IMG/VR virus record: IMGVR_UViG_3300049482_000189
Location: 1-34,001 of that record
Reading direction: 5' to 3' (one strand)
Length of the DNA: 34,001 bases
Source of the DNA: a virus
Within the stretch, counting starts at the first letter, position 1. Every line of letters begins with the position of its first letter. The notes under the pieces are model-generated. The model was not told the DNA's origin, searched no databases, and worked only from the letters and a program-made list of their open reading frames with translations. Both the position numbers and the translations under genes were made by a program. Below are positions 14,869-31,371 of this stretch, piece by piece.

Positions 14869-15057
14869 CTAAGACGTTTTTAGTAGGACCAAAAGTTCTT
14901 CCAGTTCCAATGCCCGGCCTTGAAGGCGATGGAGCTGCGTTACTTCTTGTTCGCGGCAGAGCCGGGTCTTTACCAGGTCGAGCCGCGCGGCGATTGCTCT
15001 GCGCAAAAGCTCAGCAGGTTTAGACCCGGCTACTGCCGCGAACTCCTGCGCACTCAC
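14869..15057 (-). CDS. Small helical protein before scaffold (62 aa)
   Basis: The ORF starts with GTG at 15057, overlapping the stop of the previous gene (GTGA). It contains no internal Met, so this is the only good start; no strong ribosome site is present and translation is probably coupled. The sequence is Leu/Ala/Arg-rich and likely an all-helical hairpin (LLRRAIAARLDLVKTRL, then LQGRALELEELLVLL). It could be a small head-assembly protein. It has no similarity I recognise, and its short length leaves some doubt. Confidence 0.6.
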   Translation of the reverse strand: MSAQEFAAVAGSKPAELLRRAIAARLDLVKTRLCREQEVTQLHRLQGRALELEELLVLLKTS

Positions 15058-15309: not shown

Positions 15310-15711
15310 TTATCGTGCTTGACTGATAATGCCGGATGGGACGGTATTTTGGATAGCCAGGACGACGATGTCGCCTACGGCCGATTCTGAGACGGTAACG
15401 CGGTACAGGCCAGCGCGGTCGAGCACTAACTCGGTGTCATCGGACGTCAGCATCAGCTGCAGGCCCTCTTCGGTGACAATCTGAGTGTGCATGCCGCCAC
15501 GACCATCGAACACAACACGCTCCACAAACACCTCATCGGTGTCGGCGATATTGAACGCCGCCAGGATCACGGGGGTGTCGCCGACTGCGAAGTTCGACGA
15601 TATGGGGCTGGAAGAGCGGAAATCGAACAGGAACGTGGTGCCGCCGGAAACATCCGGATCTGGTGGCAGACGTGGAGCCTGCGAGATAATTTGCCCTGTG
15701 GGAGTGCTCAT
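15310..15711 (-). CDS. Stand-alone copy of the fibre N-terminal module (133 aa)
   Basis: The 133-residue protein starts at an ATG preceded by CAGGAG twelve bases away. Residues about 27-120 match the N-terminal module of the 814- and 1538-residue fibres encoded upstream: SSSPISSNFAVGDTPVILAA parallels STSPISQEVAVALEPVRIEA, followed by FNxxDxDxVxVExV and later LVLDRAGLYRV against ILLDTAGFYRF. The module looks beta-sandwich-like. It is encoded beside the scaffold and capsid genes, so a free form that decorates the head or caps a fibre attachment site is possible. The homology is visible in the sequence; the function is inference. Confidence 0.8.
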   Translation of the reverse strand: MSTPTGQIISQAPRLPPDPDVSGGTTFLFDFRSSSPISSNFAVGDTPVILAAFNIADTDEVFVERVVFDGRGGMHTQIVTEEGLQLMLTSDDTELVLDRAGLYRVTVSESAVGDIVVLAIQNTVPSGIISQAR

Positions 15712-15750
15712 AGTGATATTAACTCCTGAAAATCACTGCTTGTCAAGTAC

Positions 15751-16116
15751 CTAGTAAACTTGTAACACCATTGCTTGCTTAATCGCCCAGAGCTTGTCAA
15801 ATATCTCCGGCTCCACACCGATGCAGCCACCGCTCAAGTAGTTGTCGGCTGAGGTCGGACTGCGTATCTGCTTGGTGCGGGACGGGAGGTTCGGGTGGAT
15901 GGCCCACACGTCATTTTCATCGCGCCGAAAAATCAAAACCTTCATGTCGAGCTGCTTGGCGTAGCCCCGCGTCAGGATGTAGACACCCTCTGGCGTGGGA
16001 GTTGCTGGCTTGCCGAAAACCGCAGGTGCCTTGATCGACACCTGCGGATGTTCGACAAACAGTGTCCCTTTGTCGAGTGATGCCAGTAGCACCACGCTCA
16101 GGAACATTTGCTTCAT
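15751..16116 (-). CDS. L,D-transpeptidase-like (YkuD-type) protein
   Basis: The 121-residue protein has a short hydrophobic N-terminus (MKQMFLSVVLLASL), then TPTPEGVYIL (39-48), H74 in WAIHPNLPS, and the cysteine motif YLSGGCIGVEPE with C98. The TPxGxY start, the upstream His and the S-G-G-C-I motif are those of the YkuD L,D-transpeptidase fold, whose cysteine makes or breaks 3-3 crosslinks in peptidoglycan. It is shorter than most cellular members and appears to be a minimal domain. The start overlaps the stop of the secreted-protein gene (ATGA), so the pair is co-expressed from the promoter at 16976-17003. In a phage it might modify host wall during infection or lysis; that is inference. 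Confidence 0.82.
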   Translation of the reverse strand: MKQMFLSVVLLASLDKGTLFVEHPQVSIKAPAVFGKPATPTPEGVYILTRGYAKQLDMKVLIFRRDENDVWAIHPNLPSRTKQIRSPTSADNYLSGGCIGVEPEIFDKLWAIKQAMVLQVY

Positions 16117-16937
16117 CTGCCTTTAACGTCCGACACCACTTCAATCGGCTGTTCAATTACTGGCGGATCTGGGACGGTAACAACTGGTGGTTGCGGGTCA
16201 GCCGGTCGGCAAGCGGTGCCGAGTACGGCTCCAATGTCAACGCCTGGGTTGGCGCATAGGTACAGGATTGCCAGGTTCGCGTCCAGGCCGGATAGGATAC
16301 GGGCGTTCTCACGGATTTGGCACTGCGGGTCTTGTTTGGCCCCGCCCAGTGCAATTCCAAAGCCCATGCCGGATGCACCACCACTCACGCCACCAGCGGT
16401 ACAAGCGGAGCTGGAATAGATGGCTGGAGCGTAGGCACTGACGTTGTTGCCGTACTTATTTGCGTGTTTAGCTTCGCCCGTCCCTTCAAACGTCACGTTT
16501 TGGCTGGAGCTGTTATTCGAGCTGTTAGAGTTGTCGCTGGACTGCGACTGGCCCTGCACCTGCCCTTGCGACTGCTCGGCACTACCGCCGGCGCCGCCAG
16601 CCCCACCGTATGCCGTACTGGACGAATTGCCCGAGTCGTTGATCGACTGTTCCTGGCCCTGCTTGGCGTCGCCGCCAGAAGCATAGGCGTTACCACCATC
16701 GGAGATGCTGATGTTGGAGTTCAAGTTGGTGCTGTCGGCGCTGGCGCTCGACGTGGAGCCGCTGACTGCGGCGGCTGAGGCAGTGGCTGCAGCGGCTGCT
16801 GAAGCATCGGCAGACGCGCTGCCGCCGCCAGTATCGGTGCCGGTGGTATTACAACTATTACCCTGGCAATAATGCTCAGAGTTCGCCAGCGCAGTGCCGG
16901 ATAAAGTGAGTAGTAAAATGAAAAGTAAGTTACGCAT
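16113..16937 (-). CDS. Exported low-complexity Ser/Gly/Gln/Asn-rich protein (274 aa)
   Basis: I choose the ATG at 16937 (AGGAG nine bases upstream); it opens a clean Sec signal peptide, MRNLLFILLLTLSGTALA, with cleavage after residue 18. The mature part starts NSEHYCQGNSC. About 130 residues of Ser/Ala/Gly/Asn-rich sequence follow, with GQ/SQ repeats (EQSQGQVQGQSQSSDNSNSS). The C-terminal third is ordered: SSSACTAGGVSGGASGMGFG, then CQIRENARILSGLDANLAIL and a proline-rich tail. Six cysteines could form disulfides in the periplasm. I recall similar exported proteins in other phages but no known function. It has its own promoter and is translated with the L,D-transpeptidase. Confidence 0.85.
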   Translation of the reverse strand: MRNLLFILLLTLSGTALANSEHYCQGNSCNTTGTDTGGGSASADASAAAAATASAAAVSGSTSSASADSTNLNSNISISDGGNAYASGGDAKQGQEQSINDSGNSSSTAYGGAGGAGGSAEQSQGQVQGQSQSSDNSNSSNNSSSQNVTFEGTGEAKHANKYGNNVSAYAPAIYSSSACTAGGVSGGASGMGFGIALGGAKQDPQCQIRENARILSGLDANLAILYLCANPGVDIGAVLGTACRPADPQPPVVTVPDPPVIEQPIEVVSDVKGR

Positions 16938-16945
16938 GATGCTGT

Positions 16946-16957
16946 ACTCCTGTTGGT
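16946..16957 (-). promoter_or_regulatory. Leader/ribosome site ACCAACAGGAGT shared with the 12088 gene
   Basis: The leader contains ACCAACAGGAGT nine bases before the ATG at 16937. The same 12 bases occur at 12094-12105 in front of the 115-residue gene. These are the two genes for which I see candidate promoters. The core AGGAG acts as ribosome site; the conserved upstream ACCAAC may be chance or a shared leader signal. Confidence 0.5.
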
Positions 16958-16975
16958 TATTCGGTGTGTGCCCTG

Positions 16976-17003
16976 AGTATACCACTCGGGTTGAGGTAAT
17001 CAA
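16976..17003 (-). promoter_or_regulatory. Sigma70-type promoter with extended -10
   Basis: On the minus strand TTGATT (16998-17003), a 16-base spacer and TATACT (16976-16981) form a good sigma70 promoter; TGG directly before TATACT gives an extended -10. The predicted start near 16969 leaves a leader of about 30 bases before the ATG at 16937. The promoter overlaps the last codons of the 429-residue fibre gene and would give the exported protein and L,D-transpeptidase an expression route separate from the structural transcript. Confidence 0.65.
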
Positions 17004-18289
17004 GGGCGTGATGGGGTGACCACGCCGAATACCTTTTCAGCATAATTCACATACTGCTGGAATTCTGCGTCGGTTATCTGCCTATTGATTAACACTGCGT
17101 CACTCAAACTCCAAACTGCGCCGGCTGTAAATGACAACTGCGAACCTCCGATAGGTGATATTGGAGCGTATGGAGCAGTCCCCCCTGCCCACTTGTCGGT
17201 GCCATTTACTTGCGCGGTTTGCAGTCCGTTAGTGCAGTAAACCGAATATACAATAGGTCTATCAGCTACAAAAGGTCTAAACGTGTCGGTAATTAATTCC
17301 GTAATTATAGTAACGGGGTCAAAAACATCCACCTCGGCTCGTGGATAGCTTGGGTCGCCCACGTGTGTGCGTAGGGCTGAGCCAAGACCTTGCCAGTTAA
17401 CATGGTGCCAAAACCCCAAGTTTGGGGTGAACGATGCGGCAGAGCCATTTGCAGTTGGTCCGAGCAGTTTACTACTACCAACGCACAGATATGAAAACTC
17501 TGGCCACTCCATACCACTTGCACTACGTTCTATCCTGTCGTCAACACCATCGCCGGTTATACCATACTTACCTGTAGCCAAGAGGGTCCACAAAGGGCGG
17601 CGGGCAGCGGTAGCCTGCGGTATATCATTGCCGTTGCCCGACTTATCGCGTATCAGGCCCACAGGCTGTCCAACCTGGTTCACAAACACCAAACCAGCGA
17701 CATCCTGGAATAGCGCAGGTTCGTATCCGCCAAGCACTTCTTTGCAGGATAGGCGATCGATGCTCATCGAATACCCTGCGGCTGAGATATTGCCGACACG
17801 CAGGCGTACTGGCGCGCTGGCGCTGTTGTTGCGTACCACAGCGCGATACGTGCCGTTGCCGGAGACATTGATGGCGCCGTCGGCAGATGGCGCATTGGCG
17901 GCACTGACCTGGAACGTGCCCGTACCGACAAAGTTTATGACGGTGAACTCAAGCAGGTACAATTTCAGGTTATCGAGCACCGACAGGAATGTCGACTGGC
18001 CTGGGGCCCAGTTCGTGTCGGCGTTCAGGCTGCCGCCCGATATGCTCATGTTGGAGCCGACCACCCATGTGCCTACTGCATTGAAGTCGACCTGCGGGTT
18101 CAGCTCCGGCCCAAGATCGAGGTTGTCCATATCCGGCGGAGACAGATCAAACCACGTACCTTCCTCGCCGTTGGTGAACCACTGGCGCGGATCCCACAGC
18201 CCGCCACCGCCACCAGTCAGGAGCGGCTGTATCACCGCACGAATGGCGGAGAATAGGGCGCTTCGGATCGGACTGCGTAGGGCGCTCAT
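17000..18289 (-). CDS. LamG/concanavalin A-like fibre protein with an inserted domain (429 aa)
   Basis: The protein has 429 residues. An amphipathic N-terminus (SALFSAIRAVIQPLL), Gly hinge and NGEEGTWFDLS (40-50) open it. The next piece of the same module, ALFQDVAG, does not appear until residue 192. About 140 residues (51-190) are inserted, a jelly-roll-like domain with LGPELNPQVDFNAVGTW. The lectin module then continues with GQPVGLIRDKSGNGNDIPQA and DGVDD to a C-terminal strand pattern (DAVLINRQITDAEFQQYV). Such modules are common in tail fibres and probably bind glycans. The start follows the previous stop by one base, with only a weak ribosome site. Confidence 0.82.
   Translation of the reverse strand: MSALRSPIRSALFSAIRAVIQPLLTGGGGGLWDPRQWFTNGEEGTWFDLSPPDMDNLDLGPELNPQVDFNAVGTWVVGSNMSISGGSLNADTNWAPGQSTFLSVLDNLKLYLLEFTVINFVGTGTFQVSAANAPSADGAINVSGNGTYRAVVRNNSASAPVRLRVGNISAAGYSMSIDRLSCKEVLGGYEPALFQDVAGLVFVNQVGQPVGLIRDKSGNGNDIPQATAARRPLWTLLATGKYGITGDGVDDRIERSASGMEWPEFSYLCVGSSKLLGPTANGSAASFTPNLGFWHHVNWQGLGSALRTHVGDPSYPRAEVDVFDPVTIITELITDTFRPFVADRPIVYSVYCTNGLQTAQVNGTDKWAGGTAPYAPISPIGGSQLSFTAGAVWSLSDAVLINRQITDAEFQQYVNYAEKVFGVVTPSRP
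17628..17674. repeat. Copy A of a dispersed 47-bp repeat in lectin modules
   Basis: These 47 bases match 21264-21310 at 43 positions, including a perfect 20-base run at the start and a perfect 14-base run at the end. Both encode GQPVGLIRDKSGNGN of the lectin module. Identity at DNA level beyond what the protein requires suggests recent duplication or recombination between the two fibre genes. Confidence 0.85.
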
Positions 18290-18290
18290 T

Positions 18291-18596
18291 TTACTGATCT
18301 ACCATGATGCCGACGGCGATCGTGGTTTCAGGCTTGTTTATACTCCACACGCCTGGGCCGACGATATACTGCGGCTGCCGTACACCACCGATGCCGGGGC
18401 CAAATACGAAGCCCGTGCTTTGGAAAGTGTTCGCCGGGTTCTTGTGGGTGATCTCCACCGACTGCAGGTCTGGCAGCACGCCGCCGAGTGCAGTGAATGC
18501 CGCGATCGTGGCAGTTTCGCCGGCGGGTACAGTGATCTCCACGACATTGACGCTGGCGCCAGTAGTGGGGGGAAGAACTTGCTGATTAAGTGCCAT
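18291..18596 (-). CDS. Small beta-rich protein of the fibre block (101 aa)
   Basis: The 101-residue product starts MALNQQVLPPTTGASVNVVE; GAGGA lies eight bases before the ATG. The sequence is beta-rich with short strands (VVEITVPAGETATIAAF) and a Gly-rich loop (FGPGIGGVRQPQYIVGPG). No signal peptide or motif is seen. It is followed after one base by the 429-residue lectin-like fibre gene and may be a fibre subunit, tip or assembly partner. Family not recognised. Confidence 0.75.
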   Translation of the reverse strand: MALNQQVLPPTTGASVNVVEITVPAGETATIAAFTALGGVLPDLQSVEITHKNPANTFQSTGFVFGPGIGGVRQPQYIVGPGVWSINKPETTIAVGIMVDQ

Positions 18597-18606
18597 GTCA
18601 TAGTCC

Positions 18607-18867
18607 TCAGTTCGGTTTTGGATTAAGTGATTTTTCGCTGCTGGTGGATGACGTCGGAGCCTGGTTTAGTGTTATATCGCCCCCGTCAACAGGAGCATCT
18701 CCTGTGGATTGTATCTCAGATTCTGCCTTACCAACAGTCAATACAACTTTGCACCACAGCAGGCAGTTTGGCAGGGCAACGTAGCCCTGAACCATGGGCT
18801 GGGGTTGCTGCGGGCCGGGCATCGAAGCGCAGCCGGTAAGTATTAAAAGCAGGAGTAGTTTTCTCAT
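18607..18867 (-). CDS. Small predicted lipoprotein (86 aa)
   Basis: The gene encodes 86 residues with a typical lipoprotein signal: MRKLLLLLILTGCASM, lipobox LTGC with the lipidated cysteine at position 13. Serine at +3 rather than aspartate at +2 predicts outer-membrane sorting. The mature part is short and polar, with a second Cys pair (PNCLLWCKVV) and a Ser/Thr/Pro-rich tail. GAGG lies six bases before the ATG. It may be an outer-membrane lipoprotein made in the infected cell, for example a superinfection-exclusion factor or an outer spanin, but no inner spanin partner is visible beside it. Lipoprotein nature firm, role unknown. Confidence 0.82.
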   Translation of the reverse strand: MRKLLLLLILTGCASMPGPQQPQPMVQGYVALPNCLLWCKVVLTVGKAESEIQSTGDAPVDGGDITLNQAPTSSTSSEKSLNPKPN

Positions 18868-18874
18868 GTGTGCC

Positions 18875-19396
18875 TCAGCTGCGCCGGACTAAAAATTCTG
18901 TGTAGGCATCGTATACGATGTTGCCGCCGTTAGGCGTGTCGCTTATTCGGATCCTAGCAATAGTGGTGGCAAGCGCCCCTACAGCAGCTGGCGCGCCACC
19001 CTGCAAACTAAAGCTATTAGACGTGGGGTTTATCTGCACCCAGGCGCCGGGAACGTAGTTGACGCCGTTTGCCAACATCACAAATAAACCGCCGTTGAGA
19101 ACCTGCGATTCTATGTCCACCCTTACGAACATGGCGTTCGACAGCCCCCAGGTAAACGGGTGCGTATTTTGTACTACGCTACCAAAACTCACGCTTGGTG
19201 TTATCCTGTGCCCAAAAAATGCAGTTGGTCCAGCAAAATCCAAAAACGCTTGTAGCCCTGCAAACGGCACATTCATACTGGCAATAAAAGTCGGAATTGC
19301 TACTGCAGTTGGCCACACCAGCTCACTGCCGACGTACAGCTTGTCGATCGCACCAAGAGATGCGGGTTCGGTATCGCCTATGCGCAACTTACCCAT
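18875..19396 (-). CDS. Fibre-block protein with tail-type N-terminal motif (173 aa)
   Basis: The protein has 173 residues. Its start overlaps the previous stop by one base (TGATG). The opening MGKLRIGDTEPASLGAIDKL followed by YVGSELVWP matches a short motif often seen at the start of phage tail and fibre proteins, where a small strand pair precedes a binding domain. The remainder is beta-rich, with WGLSNAMFVRVDIESQVLNG and RIRISDTPNGGNIVYDAY, consistent with a jelly-roll-like domain. It is probably a small receptor- or glycan-binding virion protein. No enzymatic residues are apparent. Confidence 0.75.
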   Translation of the reverse strand: MGKLRIGDTEPASLGAIDKLYVGSELVWPTAVAIPTFIASMNVPFAGLQAFLDFAGPTAFFGHRITPSVSFGSVVQNTHPFTWGLSNAMFVRVDIESQVLNGGLFVMLANGVNYVPGAWVQINPTSNSFSLQGGAPAAVGALATTIARIRISDTPNGGNIVYDAYTEFLVRRS

Positions 19397-20013
19397 CAGG
19401 TTCTGACAGTCCAGCCAAATACGCCGGGCTCAAACAGAGCCAAGCCGGCACCGTCACCTTGCGATACGAACCAGGTCTGGCCGTTATGTGTGACTTCATC
19501 TGGCCTGCCGGTGAACTGATTGACCAGGAAGTACGCAGTAAACTGGTTGATCGGCTGCACCCAGATGGTGACTTCGCCGGGTATGCGGGCAGGGACGACC
19601 AGTGCCAGCAGGCCGGGTGCCGAGGGGTCGGGCCAGATAGCTGTGTCGTACTGCTGGATGACCCACCAGAACTCTTGCTGGTTGTCTACCATACGGTAGT
19701 GCAGGCCGGGAGTGACCACGCCTTCAAAGGGCAGTGCGGAATCCGACCACGAGGCGCCGACAGAAGTGGCGAGCGACGTCACCACATCCCGCGGGTTATC
19801 CGCCGGGTTGCCGTGCGACACTGTGACGCCGGGAAGGGCCACTACAGCGGCCTCAAATACGGGATCCGACCACGCGTGGAACATGGCATGCGACGGCTGA
19901 GCGCCTGAGAACGCCGGGACGCTGAAATTGCCGGGGCCGAAGCCCTGTGCTTCAAGCGCCGCGTTGGCTGCCGCCATTTGCGCGACTGGTACGATTGCTG
20001 AAAAGTTACTCAT
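19396..20013 (-). CDS. Fibre-block protein with C-terminal chitin-binding-like module (205 aa)
   Basis: The protein has 205 residues and AGGAGA before the ATG, one base after the previous stop. The N-terminal part has QGFGPGNFSVPAFSG and HAWSDPVFEAAVVALPGVTV, a pattern I recall from other phage proteins. The last 50 residues, with VTIWVQPINQFTAYF, then DEVTHNGQTWFVSQGDGAG and EPGVFGWTV, follow the CBM5/12-like module: aromatic residues on a small three-stranded fold (W/Y...VTHNGxTW...PGxxGW). Such modules bind chitin or other polysaccharides and are found at tail-fibre ends. Probably a glycan-binding virion accessory protein. Confidence 0.8.
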   Translation of the reverse strand: MSNFSAIVPVAQMAAANAALEAQGFGPGNFSVPAFSGAQPSHAMFHAWSDPVFEAAVVALPGVTVSHGNPADNPRDVVTSLATSVGASWSDSALPFEGVVTPGLHYRMVDNQQEFWWVIQQYDTAIWPDPSAPGLLALVVPARIPGEVTIWVQPINQFTAYFLVNQFTGRPDEVTHNGQTWFVSQGDGAGLALFEPGVFGWTVRT

Positions 20014-20014
20014 G

Positions 20015-21529
20015 TTATTCTCCTGCCCAATTGATGGCGTTGTTAAGTTCTTGTGGGGTTAATTCTCGATTTATCAGTATCTCACGGCCGTACCGTCCTC
20101 GGTACTCAAAGCTAGGGTAATTGCCAATCCTGAAAATATCCTGCCAAGCTGGAGGTGATAAACCAGCCAGCACTGTCACCATGGTTTTGGCGGGGCCCAT
20201 CAGAGCAGCGTGTAAATCGCCGCGCGTATTGTTTACTGCGCCCCCATCTACTGTTATGCCCAATAAAGCCGACGAACTAGCGTAGCTCGTTGTCCCACTA
20301 CTGCCTGCTGCGGCCACCCCCCAGAAAGCGGAGCTTTGATCACTACCAAACATAGCCAAATAACTGTTGTCCGTATCGTTCGGGTCAATACGGACTATGT
20401 GCGTCCACCTGCTGACTGGCGCTGTATTAACCCGCGATTCCATGCCGTCGTCAACGCCATCCAACTCGTACATCCCGTCGGTAGCAACAGCGGGCATGCG
20501 TGCTGTCACAGTCTGAGTCCTATGCGCGGCGTTACCAGATATGTCGTCGATTCTAGCCAGCAGCTGCGCTTCCGCAGTAACCGGCACCGTACCTGCCGCA
20601 TCTTGCCACATGGTGCCAAAGTCGCGCGAGTCATATGCGAAGCCCTGTTCACCACTACTGAACAAGTCGCGCGGGATGAATGCCGGCGTTAGGTAAGCTT
20701 CTAGGTTAATAGCTTCGTCTACGAGTAAAGCACGTTCGGTTGCTACTCCGCCGTAGAACCCAATTTGTGCCATTGCCGCTGTGGAATACAAAACAAAGCG
20801 ATTGGACGCCGCTACGCCATTCCTCACTGGGGGCACTGCCGCCGTGTTGCCGTTAGATGTTGCGCGTAGTTCGTTTGGGGTAGTGGTAGAAACACATCGC
20901 GCCGTTACACGAGTCCCTACCACAAACGCCGAATTAAGCTCCAAGATGTTGCTAGCACCCGCCCCGACCCGCGACGCAGCTACAATTCGCTGGACCACAT
21001 CTGACCGTTGAAACATTCCCTGCACACTCGCCGAAGATGGGCCAGCCCCAATAGATGGCACTTTCGCTAACACGGATGTGCCAATACCAGCGCCAGTATA
21101 GAAACGAATAGCTCCCCAAAATTCCCAGTCGGTTTCCCACTCTGGAGTCAAAGTAGCGAGGCTGCCTGACAGGTTGTCGTCAACGCCATCATTAATGAGG
21201 TAGTGTCCGCTACTGTCCTGCTGTAGTTGCGGGCGGGCGGCGGCGGTGGCTTGAATGATGTGGTTGCCGTTGCCCGACTTATCACGAATCAAGCCTACAG
21301 GCTGTCCAACAGCTGTGACAGGAATTGTGCCAGCGGCATCCTGAAACATGCTGGAGAAATCTGAAGTGTCAAACCAGACACCCTGACCGCCATTACGGAA
21401 CAGGTCGCGTGGGGTGAATGCACCTGCTATATTCGGGAATATCTCGATCACGCCCAGCATGATTTTGTTCAGGGCTAAGCCGCCAAGGAACTTGGCGTTG
21501 ATCTGAGTGGTTTCGATGACTATAGCCAT
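20015..21529 (-). CDS. Tandem LamG/concanavalin A-like fibre protein (504 aa)
   Basis: I choose the ATG at 21529 ([17 protein letters not shown]), which overlaps the upstream stop as TGATG; the longer reading would lie inside the collagen-like gene. Two copies of the phage lectin module are present. Copy 1 is at about 38-120 (PRDLFRNGGQGVWFDTS, FQDAAGT, GQPVGLIRDKSGNGN, DGVDD) and copy 2 begins near 280 (PRDLFSSGEQGFAYDSRD, WQDAAGTVPVTAEAQLLARI, DGVDDGM near 355). It ends with YGREILINRELTPQELNNAI, the usual closing strand and helix. These modules probably bind surface glycans. The 429-residue neighbour carries a third, interrupted copy. Confidence 0.85.
   Translation of the reverse strand: MAIVIETTQINAKFLGGLALNKIMLGVIEIFPNIAGAFTPRDLFRNGGQGVWFDTSDFSSMFQDAAGTIPVTAVGQPVGLIRDKSGNGNHIIQATAAARPQLQQDSSGHYLINDGVDDNLSGSLATLTPEWETDWEFWGAIRFYTGAGIGTSVLAKVPSIGAGPSSASVQGMFQRSDVVQRIVAASRVGAGASNILELNSAFVVGTRVTARCVSTTTPNELRATSNGNTAAVPPVRNGVAASNRFVLYSTAAMAQIGFYGGVATERALLVDEAINLEAYLTPAFIPRDLFSSGEQGFAYDSRDFGTMWQDAAGTVPVTAEAQLLARIDDISGNAAHRTQTVTARMPAVATDGMYELDGVDDGMESRVNTAPVSRWTHIVRIDPNDTDNSYLAMFGSDQSSAFWGVAAAGSSGTTSYASSSALLGITVDGGAVNNTRGDLHAALMGPAKTMVTVLAGLSPPAWQDIFRIGNYPSFEYRGRYGREILINRELTPQELNNAINWAGE
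21264..21310. repeat. Copy B of the dispersed 47-bp lectin-module repeat
   Basis: This is the partner of 17628-17674 (43 of 47 identical). It lies in the first lectin module of the 504-residue protein. The second module of the same protein does not share this DNA identity, so the closest relative of module 1 is in the other gene. Confidence 0.85.
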
Positions 21530-23973
21530 CAGCCTACAACCGCGTACCAACGGTTTGGATCTTTGGTCGGGATGGCATCGTACTGAGCCTGCGTGCCCTG
21601 CCAAAGCGACAACACAGTGGTGCCATCACGCGAGTTTAATACGCCCGTTGCGTTCGGATTTGGTGCGCCAGCAGGGCCGATCGGACCTTGCGCACCAGTC
21701 GTACCCTGCGGGCCGGCAGGGCCGGTGTTGCCAGCGGGTCCCTGTGGGCCTATAACACCTTGCGCGCCGTCGGCGCCAGCTGGACCAGCTGGTCCGATCG
21801 GACCTTGGGGGCCTGTCGCGCCGGGCGTGCCGGCTACACCGGTTGGGCCGGCAGGGCCTACAGGGCCGGGCGGGCCGGCAGGGCCTTGAGGGCCGCCGGT
21901 GCCAGTGGCATCGAGGATGTTGTAGAACATCGCAGGGTCAAAGTTGGGCGCCAGGGCATCGTACTCAGCCTGCGTGCCGATCCACTGCTTGACGAATGCC
22001 GGGCTGTTGAAGTCCCTGACGGCGTCCGCCAACGAGCTCGGCGGGCCTTCGGGACCTTCCGGGCCTTCGGGACCAGCTGGACCAGTCGCGCCGGCGGGTC
22101 CCGTGTTGCCAATGGGGCCGGCAGGGCCGACATTACCTTGCACGCCTGGAATACCCTGTATACCAGGGACACCCTCTGGGCCTTCTGGGCCTTCTGGGCC
22201 GATTGGGCCTTGCGCGCCGGGAGTGCCGGCAGGGCCAGTCGCGCCAGTCGATCCAGTCGGGCCGATCGGGCCAGTGGCGCCGGTAGTGCCGGGCTGGCCT
22301 TGAGGGCCTTGCGGGCCGGCAGGGCCTTGCGGGCCGGGTGGGCCTTGGATTCCGTCGCCGCTTGCACCTTGGACTGACAGGCGCATGATTGGCGGGGGGG
22401 CCGGGGGCACCGCGTTCATGGTCAGACTGAACTGGTTGTTGTTATTTGCTGTGACCCTGGCGACGAGCGCAATAACGCTGCCTGCAGGGTAGGCATTAAG
22501 CAGTGGGATCGAAAACCCAACCGTCTGAAGAAAGTTGGCGGAGATCTGCAGGATAACGTCGCGGGTGAGCGGCGTGCCGCCATTTACCTGGAGGCCGTAC
22601 TCCAGCGTGCCAGTGCGGATCGTCGGGTTGCTCAGCTCCATATCGAATGCAAGCGTCGCCGTACCGGCGGGGATATCCTCGTCGATGGTAACTGCAAGGC
22701 CGAGCGGAATCCACGCGGTCGGCGGGGCAATGTTTGCGGCCTTGATTACCACGTTGGCGTTGTGTGTGTCCTGCCATGAGAACGATACAGGCGCCGGGGA
22801 TGAATAGCCCAGCTGCTTAACGCCAAAAGCGTCGATAGCAGTTACAACCACGCCGGAACCGACGACAGCGCCGGGCATTGTGATCTGCAAGTTGGTCGTG
22901 TCCAGAATTACATTCGGGCCCTCGATAATTACGCCTTCGGGGGATTCGATCAGCAGCACGTGCCCAGCGGGACTGCTGGGGTCAGGCACGATCGACATTG
23001 AGCCTTCCCGCGTACCATCGCTGGCAATAATCGGGGCCGTGAAGGTTTTTTCACCGGTGATGGTCTGGGCAGTGTCGGTGTAGACCAGATTCGGTAGGAT
23101 CGGGCCGGCCGGGCCTTGTGGGCCAGTAGGGCCTGTTGCGCCGGTCGGGCCGGCGGGGCCAGGAACAGTCGAAGCCGGGCCAGTTGGGCCGGCGGGGCCA
23201 GGAACAGTTGACGCCGGGCCAGTCGGGCCGGCGGGGCCAGGAACAGTTGACGCCGGGCCAGTCGGGCCAGTCGGACCTGGGGCGCCGGCGACGCCTGGAG
23301 TACCAATTGGGCCAATCGGGCCAATCGGGCCGACTGGGCCGACTGGGCCGACTGGGCCGTCCGCGCCTGCAGGTCCAGTCGGGCCGGCTGGGCCTGCGGG
23401 GCCTGAGCCAGGTGGACGCCAGCCGACTTGGACAGGTGGATCGAACTGAGTGGCGCCGGGGATGATGATCGAGAGTACGTCGTTTGTCGTGCCGCCGGGC
23501 GGGAACGTAGCGCCGCCACCGCCGCCGCCTCCGGCGAGATTGTTGATTGCCGTGGCAATGGCGCCCATGACGTCGACCATGGCCACTGAGCCCGTCCTGA
23601 GCAGTTCCAGGACCGGCTCGTGCGTCATGGTAAACGGGAACTGCACCACATACGAGTCGTTGCCGCCGCGGCGCACGACTTTATACCGGCCGGCGACATC
23701 CACTATCATCGTAGTGCGGTTGGCGTTCAGAATCGCTGGCTCGCCCGCAGGAGCGAAGTTGCTGGACACCATAGATGGACCGACGCCGGCGATCTGCTCG
23801 ACAGACACGGTGTCCTCTCCGACGGTGAAGATCATCAGGCGGACGGGTTCGTGGACGACTACAAATTCTTCTGAGAAGTCCGGGCCGCCGGGGATGAGCA
23901 GTAATGCTCCGGGCAGAGCTTCGCCGCCTGGTGCGAAAGAGGTCAGGGACGCTGAGCTGCGGTCGGATGACAT
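21529..23973 (-). CDS. Collagen-like fibre protein (814 aa)
   Basis: The 814-residue protein starts with AGGAG a few bases before the ATG. Order of parts: an N-terminal module at about 10-130 homologous to that of the 1538-residue fibre (SFAPGGE, later DVAGRYKVV, then FPFTMTHEP). Collagen-like Gly-X-Y segment 1 covers about 188-291, followed by a beta-rich globular domain of about 245 residues. Gly-X-Y segment 2 covers about 539-646, then a GTQAEYDAL motif. Gly-X-Y segment 3 covers about 688-772, then a second copy, [20 protein letters not shown], at the very end. Gly-X-Y repeats form trimeric rods; the GTQAxYDA element is common at ends of phage fibres. Virion fibre role is highly likely; receptor unknown. 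Confidence 0.9.
23144..23260. repeat. Three tandem 39-bp repeats in collagen segment 1
   Basis: Three head-to-tail copies of a 39-base unit (23144-23182, 23183-23221, 23222-23260) encode 13-residue units [13 protein letters not shown]. Copies 2 and 3 differ at one base; copy 1 differs from them at two or three. The near-identity implies recent expansion by slippage or unequal recombination. Unit length keeps the Gly-X-Y frame except for the interrupting STV triplet position. Confidence 0.95.
23303..23356. repeat. Six tandem 9-bp repeats in collagen segment 1
   Basis: Six 9-base units (CCAATTGGG once, CCAATCGGG twice, CCGACTGGG three times) encode [18 protein letters not shown] on the minus strand. 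Exact tandem copies suggest replication slippage that changes rod length in steps of three residues without breaking the frame. Confidence 0.95.
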
Positions 23974-23976
23974 GGA

Positions 23977-24387
23977 TTACTCCTGAATGGTTTTAAGCTG
24001 GAGCCCGCCTTGGGCCAAGCGCACGTCGACAGACTGGCCGCCAGAATCGGTAACTGCAATATAGCAGCTCGGTGGGAAATAAAGAAAGTCCCCATCGCCG
24101 ACAAAGTCGCGCAGCTTGCCAGTTGCGAAGGCGATACCGCCCTCGCCCAGCCCGTCACCAGCGAAACTTATACTGTCGAAAACCGCTGCGTTGTGAGAAT
24201 GCGCAGCCTTTCGGTACGTGCCGTCGGCTTCAAACGTCTCAAGGTGGCTGAAATCGACCGAATACGGCGGGGCTCCGCCTGTGATCGGGCCAACTGACAC
24301 AATCACCGTGGGGCCTTCTCCGCTAAGACCAGAAGCTTTAGCGGGGCGCAGGGCGACAGATGCTATTCCTGGGTTCAATACGGTCAT
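23977..24387 (-). CDS. Stand-alone copy of a repeat module of the 1538-aa fibre (136 aa)
   Basis: I choose the ATG at 24387 (MTVLNPGIASVALRPAK), whose ATGA overlaps the stop of the 1538-residue gene; no ribosome site precedes it, so translation is probably coupled to the giant fibre. The sequence ITGGAPPYSVDFSHLETFEA is the same motif as IAGGRPPYTIDFSNVQVSGY and IAGGVGPYTVDFSNVSARAV in that fibre, and FLYFPPSCYIAVTD follows where the repeats have FLYPQGGYSD. It is thus a single free module, possibly a cap, a terminal subunit or a chaperone for the fibre. Homology seen directly; role inferred. Confidence 0.82.
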   Translation of the reverse strand: MTVLNPGIASVALRPAKASGLSGEGPTVIVSVGPITGGAPPYSVDFSHLETFEADGTYRKAAHSHNAAVFDSISFAGDGLGEGGIAFATGKLRDFVGDGDFLYFPPSCYIAVTDSGGQSVDVRLAQGGLQLKTIQE

Positions 24388-27300
24388 GGGAATGGATTCG
24401 GTATGGGTGTGTAGGAGATAGTGGGCCCGTTGTACGTCCGGCTTGGGACAGCAACGATGAACCACCACGTTGTTATTTCACCGATCAGATTGCGTACCTC
24501 GACCTTGAAACCGGCCGGCAGTCGCTGCTGATCATCTTCCGCGGAGAACTTCAGGTTCTGCGACGCCCCCAGCGTGGTCCAGACACCAGTTGGGCTGGTA
24601 TCGCCGGACTCGGTCTGGCCGTACAGGAAGGTGACGCGCACCGAGTAGTTGGCAGCTGATCCGCCGGATGGGAACCAGCGGCCGAGCTGCTGGTTGATCG
24701 GGTCGTGGTAAATAGGCGCGCCCTGGACCGTGCCGTTGCCGAACAGGAACAGACTGCCGAATTTGTTCGGCGGCGATGTAGCCTGCGGGGGCCGGGTGAG
24801 CTGGAACTGTGCACCTAGGTAGCGGTAGTAGTCCGAGTACCCGCCGTTCGGGTTGGCCGTAATCTGGGTGATTCCGACGTTGCCCTCAATGGCATTGGGG
24901 ATCCACAGTACAGCCGAGCGGCCGACAGAGTCGGTGATGGTCACGAAGCCAGTCAGCTCGATACCCAGATCGATAGCCAGCGAATCGCTCCACGTGGAAC
25001 ATGTGCGCAGATTCATCTGGTAGTTGCGGGTGATCGGGCCGGCGGTCACGTTATTGAACACATTACTGGCTGGGACAAGCCCGACGAAATCATCGCTGCC
25101 GTCAAGCAGCACGCTGAACTGGAACGGATCCACAGGGATGATCGGGGCGGGGCCACCGCCACCACCGCCGCCGCCGGGCGTGCCGGAAGTGCAGTCGCCC
25201 GAACCCGGCTGGTTCAATCGAATGGCCGGAGCTGCGAGCACTGTCGTGGTGTTCTTTTGCCGGAACTGCAGGTTGAACACGGAGAATGGTGCCGCCTGGA
25301 AATCCGCGGCCCAAGTCGGGCTTACTGACTGATTCGGTGGGTTGAGCGGGAAGGTGTATGGGATGTCGAGCCAAACGCCCAGAGCAGAGCTGCCCGAAAG
25401 CGGGTCGGTAGGATCGACAGCACCGCCGCCGGTGGCCGTGCACAAAACTTGGTACTGCGTAGCCAGCGGTACACCAGACACGCCCAGGCTCTGCCAGCGA
25501 AGCAGGATGTCGGGCTGTACGCCGTTATCATCTTGGCAGAGCATGAATCCGTCGTTGCGGATGGTGATGCGCTCGTATTCGCACAACTGAGTTGACGCCA
25601 GCACTACAGTGCCTTGCGGTGGGGCGGCCGGGTCTTGGCAGAAGTTGGCGATCGGCGCGAACACGTTGGCCTGCACGCTTGACACTGCACGGGCCGACAC
25701 ATTGCTGAAGTCGACCGTGTACGGACCGACACCGCCAGCGATATCGCTGATCTGGACGCCGATGGCCTTCAGCGCTTGCGCGCCGGAGCCGGCCGGGATC
25801 GTCGGACCGTTTACCGGCGAAACGAGCTGGGTGTTGCCGCCCTGCGGGATACCAACCGACGGAGTGATGCCCAATTTGGCAGTGACTGGTGGAATTGGCG
25901 GAGCCGCAAACGGGGTAATGGCGAACTGGTCGGCATACTGGCCGGGCGCGCCATTGCAGGAGGTGGTGAACTCGTTACCACCTGGGATATACAGCTTCTC
26001 AGTACGCAGGCCATCGTTGAACTCGATGTAGCTGCCGGCGCGTATACCGATTGCGGCAACACCAACCTGCGTGACGTTATACGCGTTGGCGCCGGTCAGG
26101 GCGTCCAGTTTGGCTCCGAAGAATATGCCTGGGTTGCCGCCGCTGAATGCCCCGCCCACAACCGGTGAATCTTCACGTACCAGCGCGACGGCGCGGTTGG
26201 TCAGGACGCCGGGAGCAGTTTCGTTCTGCAGGGTGACGAAGAACGGTTCCCCGTTATCGTCATTCTTCAGCTGCGCAGTGAACTGCGTGCTGATATCACT
26301 GAACACATTGGACGCCACCACGCGCAGTGACACTTCGCCGCGCGCCGGGAATTGGGACTCGCCGGCGGTCAAGGTGATGTTCAGGTTGCCAGTGCTGCCG
26401 TTGAGCGGGGCTGAGACCGACGGAGATACGCAGATAGTCGCGCTGATCGGTGTCTCAGATGCCACGAACCCGCGGTATGAGTAAGACTCGACGTAGAAGT
26501 TGCCGGGCGACGGATCGGCGACCAGGGTCAGGTCGCTGTTCACCAGGTTACCTTCACTCTTGCCCTGCGGGATGAAGTGGAACGCAGTGCGTTGCTCGAT
26601 GCCGATGCCGGAGTCGCGGATGATCACGTAGCCCTGGACCCGCATGACAATGCCGTAGTCCTTAGTTGGTACGAACGCGTAGGCTTGGCTGAACACAGGG
26701 TCGACGCGCAGAACCACGTTCTGGCCGGACTGCACGCCATCTCGGATCGGAGACGAACTGGGGCTGGAACCGCCAAAGAACGTGGCAATAGCCGAACCGA
26801 CATCTATGCCGGTGGCGACATCGCGGATATAGCCACTGACCTGCACGTTCGAGAAGTCGATCGTGTAGGGCGGCCGGCCGCCAGCGATGTTGCGCGGAGC
26901 AACTTCCAGGTACCCGAACGTGACTTCGTCTGGAGTGGTGTTTATGGTGCCGGGGCCGATATCAGGCCACGTGACGGGCGTGCTCGGATCCAGTGCCGAC
27001 GGCACCATAAACAGTTCGAACGTCACTGGCAGGGTGGACGGAGGCGGAGTGCCAGAGGGGGTGATGTAGAACGTATCCTCGTACGCGCCCTGCGGGGCGA
27101 GATACGTGCCGACTGGGGCAACGCCGTCAGCGCCGGATGGCAGGTAGATCGGGGTTACAACGCCGGCGCCATTTTGGATCAGTGCAAACGAGCCGGGGGC
27201 GAAGAATATACCGCCGTAGCCGGACGCAGACTCGTCGTAATTGACAGCGTCGGGCACAACTTCGAGGGCCGCAAAGGTCATGCTCAGCGGGCCGCCGGGT

Positions 27301-29000
27301 AGCCCGGAGGTCGGGCCAAATATGTCGACGACCTGCCGGGTGCGATCAACCACACCGCCGGTTATCTGCTGGAAGAATCCGCTGGCCACCACGTTGTCGA
27401 AATTGACGGCGTACGGCGGATTCAGCGTGATGCTGTCGTCTTCAGTGAAGTTCCACAGCCGGGCGGCTACGCGCGCCGAGGTGAGTAATTGACTGTTGAG
27501 GTCGAAGTCCAGCAGCTCGGTATTGCCGCCGCCGAGAATGATATCGCCGGGCACGTCGGTGGACGGAGCATATGCGATCAGGCAGCGCGGGAACGTAGCA
27601 TCGGCATTGGTCAGGATGTTCCAGGAGTCGGAATAGCCGCCCTGCGGGTACAAGAAATCGCCGCAGCCGACGAACCCTTCACTGCCGGCCGGCACGTAGA
27701 ATTTACGGCTGGATGGGCCATTCAGCTGGGTGACGGTGACGTACGAGCCGGCATTGATCCGGATTGAAGCCCAACCACTTTTCGTCAGGTCATATGCTAG
27801 GGCCACCATGGTATAGGCCATGGTCGCGACCTGATCGGCGCCGATCAGCTGCACCTGGTTGCCGACGACGTTCACAGTCGTGGCACGGGGCTCAAGACCT
27901 TCGTACAGCAGTGCCGTGGCTGATACATTGCTGAAATCGACCAGCCAGGGGCCGCCGGAACCACCATTTTGGCGAATATCGCGCAGAGATAGGTAGATTG
28001 TGCCGCCTAAATCGGCCAAACTCGTGTTTGTGGCCGGCAGAACGACGTCGGGGCGCCGAATTGGCGCCGAATCGAAGCCGCCGGGCGTGCCGGGGTCGGC
28101 AATTGACGGAGCGATGCACAAAAACCCGATAATATCGCCATCTTGGGCGCAGCAAGGGGCCGAAACCACGTACGGATCGCCGGGCGTGCCGGTTCCAGTC
28201 ACTTCGGTGCCGAATCCGCGCGAAACGAAGGTCCGGGACACGAAAATACCGTCGTCGTCAGGGAAAACCATGTTTCCTTGGCGGCTGGAGAGCTTCACAT
28301 TGGCCGAAATGGTCACGGTAACAGGGCCCAGCAAGGGGTCTGTCTCGGTCACAACCATATCCACGGTGGCCGTATCGGCCCCGAGAATGGTCTCGATGCG
28401 GTTTTTCAGGGCTACAACGTATGGATCGAGCGCCGAACCGAAGCCAGTCACCTCGATACCACTGCCACCTTCGACAAACGTACGCTCAGCGTACAGTCCG
28501 TCGGGCAGTCGGACGATTATGTTGTTCGGCTGCGGGGAGATTTTCAACTCCAGGCCGGCCAAAACGCGTTCCAACTGCTCCACCAAGCCCGGGATCAGCG
28601 GCGCTAACACGCTCCAGATCAACTCGTGGGTCATGGTGAACGGGAAACCGATCAGGGTGAAGTCGCCGGGCGCCGTGTCGCCGGTGGTGGAAAACACGAA
28701 CCGGTAAAATCCTGCCGTATCCAGCAGGATACTGGTGCGCTGGCTGTTCAGAGTCACTGGGCCGCGCCATGGCATAAATGGCGAGCTAACTGCGACGCCA
28801 TCGACGTGGATCACCTGCTCAACCGTGATCGTATCTCCGTCGCGCAGGTTGAATGCCTCAATCCGAACCGGTTCAAGCGCTACCGCCACCTCCTGGGAGA
28901 TGGGGCTGGTGCTGTTCACGTCGAAAAAAATGTAAGCCGGGTTCGATTCGCCGCCGGGAGCAAACGAGCTGAGCGATCCGGAGCCACGAGCAGAGGTCAT
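24384..29000 (-). CDS. Giant repeat fibre/adhesin-like virion protein (1538 aa)
   Basis: The 1538-residue protein starts with GGGAGA six bases before the ATG (ATGA overlap with the upstream gene). An N-terminal docking-type module ([26 protein letters not shown]) covers about 1-130. Two tandem elements follow, GSGIEVTGFGSALDPYVV near 180-198 and FGTEVTGTGTPGDPYVVS near 262-280. The rest is a series of large beta domains, each starting with a variant of GPYxVDFSNV (near residues 345, 523, 705 and 1087) and ending with a variant of YPQGGYSDxxxI; two further copies are degenerate. An eight-Gly hinge at about 25154-25177 separates the C-terminal domain (GQTESGDTSPTGVWTTLGAS and on). There is no enzyme motif. 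Likely a long appendage of Ig-like repeats. Confidence 0.9.
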   Translation of the reverse strand: MTSARGSGSLSSFAPGGESNPAYIFFDVNSTSPISQEVAVALEPVRIEAFNLRDGDTITVEQVIHVDGVAVSSPFMPWRGPVTLNSQRTSILLDTAGFYRFVFSTTGDTAPGDFTLIGFPFTMTHELIWSVLAPLIPGLVEQLERVLAGLELKISPQPNNIIVRLPDGLYAERTFVEGGSGIEVTGFGSALDPYVVALKNRIETILGADTATVDMVVTETDPLLGPVTVTISANVKLSSRQGNMVFPDDDGIFVSRTFVSRGFGTEVTGTGTPGDPYVVSAPCCAQDGDIIGFLCIAPSIADPGTPGGFDSAPIRRPDVVLPATNTSLADLGGTIYLSLRDIRQNGGSGGPWLVDFSNVSATALLYEGLEPRATTVNVVGNQVQLIGADQVATMAYTMVALAYDLTKSGWASIRINAGSYVTVTQLNGPSSRKFYVPAGSEGFVGCGDFLYPQGGYSDSWNILTNADATFPRCLIAYAPSTDVPGDIILGGGNTELLDFDLNSQLLTSARVAARLWNFTEDDSITLNPPYAVNFDNVVASGFFQQITGGVVDRTRQVVDIFGPTSGLPGGPLSMTFAALEVVPDAVNYDESASGYGGIFFAPGSFALIQNGAGVVTPIYLPSGADGVAPVGTYLAPQGAYEDTFYITPSGTPPPSTLPVTFELFMVPSALDPSTPVTWPDIGPGTINTTPDEVTFGYLEVAPRNIAGGRPPYTIDFSNVQVSGYIRDVATGIDVGSAIATFFGGSSPSSSPIRDGVQSGQNVVLRVDPVFSQAYAFVPTKDYGIVMRVQGYVIIRDSGIGIEQRTAFHFIPQGKSEGNLVNSDLTLVADPSPGNFYVESYSYRGFVASETPISATICVSPSVSAPLNGSTGNLNITLTAGESQFPARGEVSLRVVASNVFSDISTQFTAQLKNDDNGEPFFVTLQNETAPGVLTNRAVALVREDSPVVGGAFSGGNPGIFFGAKLDALTGANAYNVTQVGVAAIGIRAGSYIEFNDGLRTEKLYIPGGNEFTTSCNGAPGQYADQFAITPFAAPPIPPVTAKLGITPSVGIPQGGNTQLVSPVNGPTIPAGSGAQALKAIGVQISDIAGGVGPYTVDFSNVSARAVSSVQANVFAPIANFCQDPAAPPQGTVVLASTQLCEYERITIRNDGFMLCQDDNGVQPDILLRWQSLGVSGVPLATQYQVLCTATGGGAVDPTDPLSGSSALGVWLDIPYTFPLNPPNQSVSPTWAADFQAAPFSVFNLQFRQKNTTTVLAAPAIRLNQPGSGDCTSGTPGGGGGGGGPAPIIPVDPFQFSVLLDGSDDFVGLVPASNVFNNVTAGPITRNYQMNLRTCSTWSDSLAIDLGIELTGFVTITDSVGRSAVLWIPNAIEGNVGITQITANPNGGYSDYYRYLGAQFQLTRPPQATSPPNKFGSLFLFGNGTVQGAPIYHDPINQQLGRWFPSGGSAANYSVRVTFLYGQTESGDTSPTGVWTTLGASQNLKFSAEDDQQRLPAGFKVEVRNLIGEITTWWFIVAVPSRTYNGPTISYTPIPNPFP

Positions 29001-29281
29001 AACAGTTCTCCCGCCAAATTTGCCACGATACGGTCAAACATGGCTTTGTTCGGGCTGGTCCGGGCTGACTTGGGCGGAGTGAACACCACCGGCGTGGACC
29101 AGAACAGCGTCTTGTGTCCGTTCGATGATACACCCTGGTCGTTATAAGCGAAACGTAATCCAGTACGAAATTCGACCACCGCCAGGGGCGGGAACAGGGT
29201 CAGCTCCCGCACGACGCCTTCGCCGCGTATCGTATCGAATACCAAGTCGCCAGCGGAAATTTCATCGCCATCGAAAATCAT
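28997..29281 (-). CDS. Small SH3/KOW-like protein after portal (94 aa)
   Basis: The gene encodes 94 residues, MIFDGDEISAGDLVFDTIRG and onward. Its start overlaps the portal stop as ATGA. The pattern 'DLVFDTIRGEGVV...AVVEFRTGLRFAYNDQG....GHKTLFW' is that of a small barrel (GxGxV, V-x-F, then an aromatic loop and xLFW), seen in small phage proteins I recall but cannot name. The C-terminal 25 residues are basic (PPKSARTSPNKAMFD). Located between portal and the giant fibre, it could be a small head or packaging accessory protein. Function unknown. Confidence 0.75.
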   Translation of the reverse strand: MIFDGDEISAGDLVFDTIRGEGVVRELTLFPPLAVVEFRTGLRFAYNDQGVSSNGHKTLFWSTPVVFTPPKSARTSPNKAMFDRIVANLAGELL

Positions 29282-31371
29282 TGGGGAACTCCAGTCTGCG
29301 CTTCACGCATATCGTTGTTAATCTGGTTCCCCGCGTCGGGGATTGGAGGCTGGCCGGAGCCACCGCGGATGGCGTTCTCCAGCAGTGCCGGGTTCAGAGG
29401 CTGGCGGCCCGAGCCTGCAGCCGCGGGGGCTCCGGCGTCGGGCGTCTGCATGCCAGGCAGGGGAGTGGGTGGCAAGCCACCTGCCGCGCCGAGGGTTTCC
29501 GGAGTGGTCCGGCCAGCCAAGATGTCCTGTTGGGCCCGCTCTTTGGCGGCCTTCGGGTCCTCGACCATATCGTCCACCGGCAAGCCCGTCGATTTCAGGA
29601 TCTCGCGGAGCAGGATCTGTATGGTTTCCGGCTTGACGATGCCGGACTGAGTGTATGGGGCGAGCAGCTGCAGCAGTTCTGCGTTGCGGCTCTGCGCCAG
29701 TTCGCGCTGCAGCAGTCCGCTGGCGCCAGTGGCGATAACCTGGGCGTCACCCTTGATGGTCGGATCGTCCGATGTCATCAGGTTGAACTCGTAGTACCCG
29801 GTGATCAGTTTCTCGACCACGTCGCGGTCTACGTTCAGGATCGCTGCCTTCACGCCCTTGGCCGCGTTCGACATCAGGGCGGCGAGGCCAGTGGCAGTAC
29901 GGCCGGCGCCGGCCGCGGCGGGCGAGCCGAGCACGTACGCAGGAACGCCGGACACGTCGTCCGCCATGTTCTTGTAGTAATCGAACAGCGCTTGCAATGG
30001 TGCGCCCACGTTCGGCACCGCGTAGAAGTTAAACGCCGTCCTACCACCGCCGGTGAGATCAGGCGACACGCCATATATGCGGTACGGTACGACGTTTGTC
30101 GGGTCTTCGCCAGCGGCCAAGCGCTCGGTTTCGACTTCGCCGATCGGGCCGGACGAATAGCCTGCGTTCTTCAGTATGGATCGGGCGGTCGAGTTGCACA
30201 CGCGCTCCAGATCCAGCAACAGGGTGATGATACTGTCGCCCCAGAACGAGCCGGGCACCTTCACCCAACTCGTGGAATAGATTGGCCGGCGCCCCGTCTC
30301 GTACGGGTTCAGCACAGCTTTCACGGTGATGTTGGCGATCGTCCAGACTTCGACTTCGTAATACGCCTGCGGGTCCGGGACCAGCAAGCCACCATCGATC
30401 AGTGTCTGCCCATCGACCTGCCCGTTGTAAACCAGGGTATCCAGTGGGGTGGTATACCCGACCAGGGCCTCTTCTTTCGTCTCGATGCGATCCCGGGCCT
30501 GATCGAACTGCAACTGCTCGCTGAACCCGTTCGGGAAATCATTCAGCACGCGGCGTATGGCTTCCTCACGGAACCCGAACATCCCGATGCAGGCATGTAA
30601 TCGTTCGCCCAGCATGCGCTGGCGCGTGATCATGTATTTCCCATCCTGCGTCGTGGTCGAGTCCGGGGATGGAAATACGTCGAATGGACTGACGCGCATC
30701 ACAAACGGCACAGGCTGACTGCGCACCACCAGTTTATTTTCTTCCCACACCGACTTTTTCGTATTCACGAACACCGGGCCGCGCAGGAACGCGGTCGGGA
30801 ACACACTGAGGTCATCGATGAACGCACCAAACGCGTTGCGCCAGTTCCCTTCCATCAACTGATCCTCGATCAGCTTCTCCATGTTGGTATTGGCTTTATC
30901 AGCCAACTCCTGGGCCATCCGCAACGCTTCGGCCTTGAGCAGTCGAGCCTGATCGGTCAGTCCTTTCGGATCCCGCTCGCCCGACCGCACGGTTTCCTCG
31001 AGTGCATCGATCACGGCCTCCCTGAGGCGCTTCGGGAGCTTCGGGATCGGTGTCGAGTTCAGTGTCCAGGGTTTGTCGTAGGACGGGATGAGTATGTCGG
31101 TCAGCCACGAGGCACCGGCGCGAGACTTCAGGCTGGCAATGCCCATATGTGGCGGATTGACCATGTCGATGTCGCCCAACTGCGTGGCAGTGTACTCACG
31201 GCGCTTCGAAAACGCGCAATTTATTAATTGCGCGTCGATCCTGGCGTTCTGGCGATGATCAGTGGCTTCAGTAAACGCGCCGCGCACGTATTCGGAGAGT
31301 CGGTTCTCCAGTGTCGTTTGCGGAGTGGTCTCCGGCGGGTCCATGTAAATTTTCGACATGTCTTCGTACAT
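29278..31371 (-). CDS. Portal protein
   Basis: The 697-residue protein begins MYEDMSKIYMDPPETTPQTT; AAGGG lies upstream of the ATG at 31371, making it preferable to the Met four residues later. The C-terminal half contains GAGRTATGLAALMSNAAKGV and IKGDAQVIATGASGLLQREL, matching the 'RTAxGLxxLMxxAxK...KGDxxVxAxGxxxL' pattern of podovirus (P22/T7-type) portals. The middle has RVSPFDVFPSPDSTT and ILKNAGYSSGPIGEVE. Portals form the twelve-fold ring at one capsid vertex through which the terminase pumps DNA. The length is near that of the P22 portal (725). It follows terminase with two tiny genes between. Downstream genes start directly at its stop. Confidence 0.9.
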   Translation of the reverse strand: MYEDMSKIYMDPPETTPQTTLENRLSEYVRGAFTEATDHRQNARIDAQLINCAFSKRREYTATQLGDIDMVNPPHMGIASLKSRAGASWLTDILIPSYDKPWTLNSTPIPKLPKRLREAVIDALEETVRSGERDPKGLTDQARLLKAEALRMAQELADKANTNMEKLIEDQLMEGNWRNAFGAFIDDLSVFPTAFLRGPVFVNTKKSVWEENKLVVRSQPVPFVMRVSPFDVFPSPDSTTTQDGKYMITRQRMLGERLHACIGMFGFREEAIRRVLNDFPNGFSEQLQFDQARDRIETKEEALVGYTTPLDTLVYNGQVDGQTLIDGGLLVPDPQAYYEVEVWTIANITVKAVLNPYETGRRPIYSTSWVKVPGSFWGDSIITLLLDLERVCNSTARSILKNAGYSSGPIGEVETERLAAGEDPTNVVPYRIYGVSPDLTGGGRTAFNFYAVPNVGAPLQALFDYYKNMADDVSGVPAYVLGSPAAAGAGRTATGLAALMSNAAKGVKAAILNVDRDVVEKLITGYYEFNLMTSDDPTIKGDAQVIATGASGLLQRELAQSRNAELLQLLAPYTQSGIVKPETIQILLREILKSTGLPVDDMVEDPKAAKERAQQDILAGRTTPETLGAAGGLPPTPLPGMQTPDAGAPAAAGSGRQPLNPALLENAIRGGSGQPPIPDAGNQINNDMREAQTGVPQ

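Follow-up and report, generated by a model that had tools for sequence, protein, structure and literature searches.

The locus analyzed here raises the question of why one module occurs both as a free 133-aa protein and at the N-terminus of two very different fibres, and what it does in the virus particle. The window, i.e. the complete 34-kb stretch of DNA analyzed, is an IMG/VR virus record, to which HMO-2011-type podoviruses are distantly related via their capsid and portal proteins (about 25-30% identity). On the minus strand, TerL is followed by the portal gene (29278-31371), a 94-aa gene, the 1538-aa fibre (24384-29000), a 163-aa gene and the 814-aa collagen fibre (21529-23973). After further genes come the 133-aa protein (15310-15711), two small genes, the putative scaffold (13841-14842), which was named for its position beside the capsid gene, the major capsid protein (12896-13822) and the tail tubes. 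The module comprises residues 1-126 of the 1538-aa fibre (28623-29000) and residues 1-119 of the 814-aa fibre (23617-23973). The body of the former (24384-28622) carries a GG-x-PY-x-DFSN motif again at residues ~355, 715 and 1097, and the body of the latter (21529-23616) is collagen-like with a C-terminal Phage_tail_C domain (PF24243).

Among the neighbouring genes on the minus strand, the product of the 163-aa gene (23977-24468) resembles the internal repeats of the 1538-aa fibre (GG-x-PY-x-DFS motif; BLASTP E-value 5e-4) and may represent a further fibre domain in free form. The proteins encoded at 20015-21604 and 17000-18289 have a GQPVGLIRDKSGNGN-type stretch in common, and each has a match to the virion structural family phrog_10356. 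The segment 15751-17003 encodes a 121-aa protein, whose YkuD (L,D-transpeptidase) match is just above the Pfam cut-off, and next to it a protein rich in Ser, Asn and Gly that has a hydrophobic stretch at its N-terminus; the related contig L005 contains both proteins as well (45% and 61% identity, respectively). An HNH endonuclease gene (11189-11728) separates the first tail-tube gene from the post-capsid genes, and the ORF list of L005 contains no HNH endonuclease gene at the corresponding place.

A sequence-only reading of this DNA had proposed that the two fibres and the 133-aa protein share one module. Its reading frames and coordinates for the three proteins are correct, and BLASTP, shuffling and profile-profile comparison agree on the shared module. 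By BLASTP, the N-termini of the 1538-aa and the 814-aa fibre are 40% identical over 132 aa (89 bits, E-value 7e-22), and the 1538-aa fibre and the free protein are 34% identical (51 bits, E-value 3e-12). The BLASTP match between the 814-aa fibre and the free protein is not significant; the Smith-Waterman score of this pair is nevertheless above those of all 5000 shuffles (Z 6.2), as are the scores of the fibre-fibre pair (Z 36) and of the 1538-aa fibre with the free protein (Z 19). The profile-profile alignment for which the earlier reading had called matches the fibre profile to the free profile over 104 columns (hhalign 98.4%, E-value 4.8e-15).

The motifs that had been listed for the two fibres are indeed all found in both. 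The free protein, which had been described as little more than these motifs, shares the core only (SPIS strand, PV, VxVE, DxAGxYR), and SFAPGGE and FPFTMTHE are absent from it. Its own termini (SGGTT and VPSGIISQAR) are matched by a free relative in another contig. In codon-aligned DNA, the two fibre modules of the window are only 53% identical, the free form being even more divergent, for which reason the free protein is no recent derivative of the window's fibres. These comparisons make the 133-aa protein a genuine relative of the fibre modules, though an older one.

AlphaFold2 models computed with the family alignment predict a beta-sandwich for the free protein as well as for the fibre N-terminus (core pLDDT ~97); the two models are not independent, because largely the same alignment was used. 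They were compared by strand order and shared PDB matches, and agree in strand order and in the three leading matches, two of which come from phage capsid or portal-vertex structures. In the free protein, a disordered arm (residues 1-21) precedes the beta-sandwich core (~22-122) and a short tail. The module is accordingly described as a predicted jelly-roll-like beta-sandwich of about 100 residues after a flexible N-terminal arm.

The top PDB match is YomS (6i5o_A; Z 8.6-8.7, rmsd 4.4-4.8, 102-104 aligned residues), with Z-scores in a range that common folds also reach without being related. It is followed in VIA-align by chains of the 7-7-1 capsid and the Milano portal vertex, with Z-scores near background (Z 8.0-8.3, rmsd 3.8-4.3, 104-105 aligned residues). 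Chain 0 of 9hz8 (135 aa) was identified as the 7-7-1 decoration protein gp002 by the length of 135 given in the paper, and chain l1 of 8fwg (137 aa) as the Milano mCP gp10 by similar length and fold. A profile search of PDB sequences up to an E-value of 10 hit neither the Milano mCP/7-7-1 family nor YomS/XepA. PDB sequence hits to TAL effectors were rejected as spurious, because no matched stretch passed alone. In the BFVD, podovirus proteins match better than the PDB entries, with E-values down to 1e-7; among them are a 150-aa and a 485-aa protein of phage ctUS21, where the fold again occurs in one short and one long protein.

For the wider occurrence of the module, 47 contigs of the window's clade were obtained by a capsid-protein alignment scan, and a profile built from six modules was iterated to convergence at 1e-3. 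It matched 52 domains (about 50 copies) in 29 sources, the window included. Several of the contigs are near-identical, and since many are closely related, the number of independent lineages is perhaps eleven by our own estimate. All 18 portal-bearing contigs have a module copy after the portal gene, and wherever a capsid gene is present the module is located in the portal-to-capsid interval; contig L004 ends inside the fibre. In 17 of these 18 contigs, the distance from the portal gene to the start of the first copy is 76-470 bp, and in L020 it is 1263 bp.

The iterated profile also matches ~105-aa proteins far upstream of the portal (L013:506-814, L016:569-886, L023:688-999, L025:289-594, and one in L026). 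These were left out of the argument, because the profile took them in only after iteration and they form a long branch in the tree. They might represent a second, distant free form.

When IMG/VR was scanned directly with the module three times, the already known contigs and two short contigs came back; the free protein, used singly as the query against IMG/VR, had no relative there. The prevalence outside the clade rests on few pattern-based scans, because most contigs were recruited via capsid similarity. In 50,697 phage records, tblastn detected no relative of the window's modules; module queries from other loci gave no significant match, and the region 11.9-24.0 kb of the window gave none as a DNA query. 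Scans with capsid proteins yielded no relative in contigs of bacterial and archaeal genomes. The module gave no match above chance in ten annotated regions of HMO-2011-type phages and of others related by capsid or portal, and these regions include the gene that follows the portal in the HMO-2011 type. Searching 35 module members against Pfam and PHROG revealed no convincing family match.

Where the module is fused, it is located near the N-terminus, either singly after an arm of ~20-25 residues or as an N-terminal tandem pair. It is followed by collagen in the window, L037, L040 and L042, with a pectate-lyase beta-helix in addition in L037 and L040, and by YadA-head repeats with an S74 intramolecular chaperone in L013. 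Alanine-rich or short-collagen shafts with tail-fibre PHROG matches follow in L014, L020 and L029, and unannotated bodies in the L012-L026 group, L030, L053 and the 1538-aa fibre of the window. The same domain is thus placed N-terminally on unrelated C-terminal bodies, as is characteristic of an N-terminal anchor domain. Collagen, YadA-type and S74 parts are typical of trimers, and the module-bearing fibres are presumably trimeric on account of these shafts.

An alternative is that the module binds glycans or a receptor instead of serving as an anchor. Jelly-roll domains resemble carbohydrate-binding modules, visible here in weak CBM16 hits, and a low-affinity surface binding of such domains has been proposed by the authors of the Milano study (PMC10491603). 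Against this, the module is near N-terminal wherever it is fused, with the lyase and chaperone parts located further along, which makes a binding role improbable. An anchoring role is preferred: on the basis of homology, near-N-terminal position, shaft variety, synteny and predicted fold, we infer that the small beta-sandwich domain probably fastens spikes and fibres to the particle. As a whole, the explanation that we consider probable is that in this podovirus clade the module is the base through which trimeric fibres and spikes are anchored to the virion, and that this base is kept while shafts and tips are exchanged. The docking platform that had been proposed from the sequence is in this respect well backed, as a putative docking module, by the near-N-terminal position, the unrelated shafts and the location after the portal in every portal-bearing contig.

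Under the anchor reading, the arm and the sandwich would attach to the particle, with the strand that follows the sandwich leading into the shaft. The base would stay constant, while collagen, beta-helix lyase, YadA-head plus intramolecular chaperone and other shafts and tips would be swapped, so that one particle could carry several fibre kinds on the same base type. The two fibres of the window share the arm (SLxSFAPGGE) and the strand into the shaft (FPFTMTHE), which makes it most likely, as far as these motifs indicate, that both rely on one type of site. A motif akin to the exit strand, P-x-[ST]-[MLV]-[TS]-H-[DE], is also found in the fibre modules of L030, L037, L040 and L042. Between the window (28623-29000) and its near relative L004 (8226-8603), the fibre module is 84% identical (dN 0.088), compared to 92% for the remainder of the fibre (dN 0.049) and 93% for the portal (dN 0.042). 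The fibre module has thus changed faster than the remainder of its fibre and the portal, the reverse of what is expected of a constant docking site.

Concerning the place of attachment, the chances of a head site are about even. The head is weakly pointed to by the free copy beside the scaffold, the location of the tail genes elsewhere and the weak likeness of the fold to decoration proteins. Alternatively, the module may fix the fibres to the neck or tail instead of the capsid, the module-bearing spikes then being tailspikes encoded beside the portal. The first module gene adjoins the portal gene, and some bodies are tailspike-like, with a weak hit to a pre-neck appendage family among the matches. 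The tail-tube genes and a separate tail-fibre-like gene (8558-9484), however, are located after the capsid gene, the free copy lies beside the scaffold, and the weak fold likeness is to capsid decoration proteins, so that attachment to the neck or tail is a possible but somewhat less favoured solution than the head.

The free form itself occupies a recurrent slot. In the window, L005, L006, L013 and L030, free modules lie upstream of the scaffold and are separated from it by a few small genes, and the corresponding gene encodes a fused ~500-aa protein in L012, L015, L016, L021-L023, L025 and L026. In most members of both sets the slot is marked by a small helical gene adjoining the scaffold (14869-15057, minus strand, in the window), which is clear in the window, L005, L013 and the L012 group and weak in L006. 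In the module tree, in which the deeper forks are unresolved, the free modules of the window and L005 form a pair (100/98) related to the window's fibre modules (90/83). The free module of L013 clusters with the fused ~500-aa modules (93/93), and the free and fused states hence seem, on this grouping, to have been interchanged at least once.

That the free gene is a decayed fibre remnant would agree with a module present and a shaft absent. Relatives in the same place in L005 and L006 as well as an AGGAG ribosome-binding site and distinct conserved termini contradict this, and such an origin is very improbable. The free proteins of the window and L005 are 40% identical over the whole length, about the same as several accessory genes; the capsid proteins are 83% identical. 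The 133-aa protein would rather be a long-diverged paralogue with the same predicted fold in the slot beside the scaffold gene, and most likely belongs to the head as a structural subunit, for decoration or as a base, instead of being a truncated fibre.

According to the sequence-only reading, the free copy could fill or cap the sites used by the fibre modules, or compete with the fibres for them. The fold predicted for the free and the fibre modules is the same, and two precedents are known. In Milano, the free LP2 matches the N-terminal strand of the Ig-bearing LP1, and both are located in quasi-equivalent sites (PMC10491603); in Klebsiella phage KpV767, the second receptor-binding protein is shortened to 69 aa and retains the attachment peptide (PMC6872550). 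So far, this suggestion is not supported for the free copy in the window, which belongs to a separate lineage with the free protein of L005 and has its own slot beside the scaffold. As it is devoid of the arm and the exit strand that both fibres share, a separate decoration or base subunit is likelier than a cap or competitor, and we regard the filler role as unlikely. Less likely still are mixed capsid platforms, in which a dedicated free beta-sandwich base and fibre-borne copies would together let one site type show unrelated fibres of several kinds, with the free subunit setting their ratios.

Several known systems can be compared to the proposed anchor. Milano LP1/LP2 are free and fused versions of one capsid-binding element in one virion; their element is a short N-terminal strand, and the module is predicted to be a folded domain (PMC10491603). 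Agrobacterium phage Milano gp10 and 7-7-1 gp002 have a similar length (135-137 aa) and a beta-rich jelly-roll-like domain, but are shaftless dimers that decorate the T=9 capsid of myophages, and show no sequence match in the PDB profile search. YomS and the C-terminal domain of XepA are the best PDB fold match and occur as single-domain (YomS) and two-domain (XepA) versions forming pentameric discs; unlike the module, they were described from lytic cassettes of Bacillus prophages, are fibreless and give no sequence match in that search (PMC6834076). SPP1 gp12 and other head fibres resemble the collagen fibres as collagen-like trimers on the capsid, gp12 being described as collagen-like/coiled and set beside the module by description only (PMC7602432).

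A parallel in architecture is provided by the Klebsiella-phage, T7 gp17-type and T4gp10-like branching adapters, with a conserved N-terminal part, exchangeable C-terminal bodies and several fibres per phage; these receptor-binding-protein systems also include truncated forms that keep the attachment part only (PMC6872550). The module differs from these adapter families in that it has no Pfam match to them, that a separate free paralogue is encoded close to the scaffold gene, and that modules also occur as tandem pairs. This putative adapter-domain family is undescribed in the libraries searched (Pfam, PHROG), and with its definition the unannotated fibre and spike genes of an uncultivated podovirus clade can be found by their N-terminus. 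With free, fused and tandem forms in matching places, it offers a concrete model for how phages build and swap their adhesion parts.
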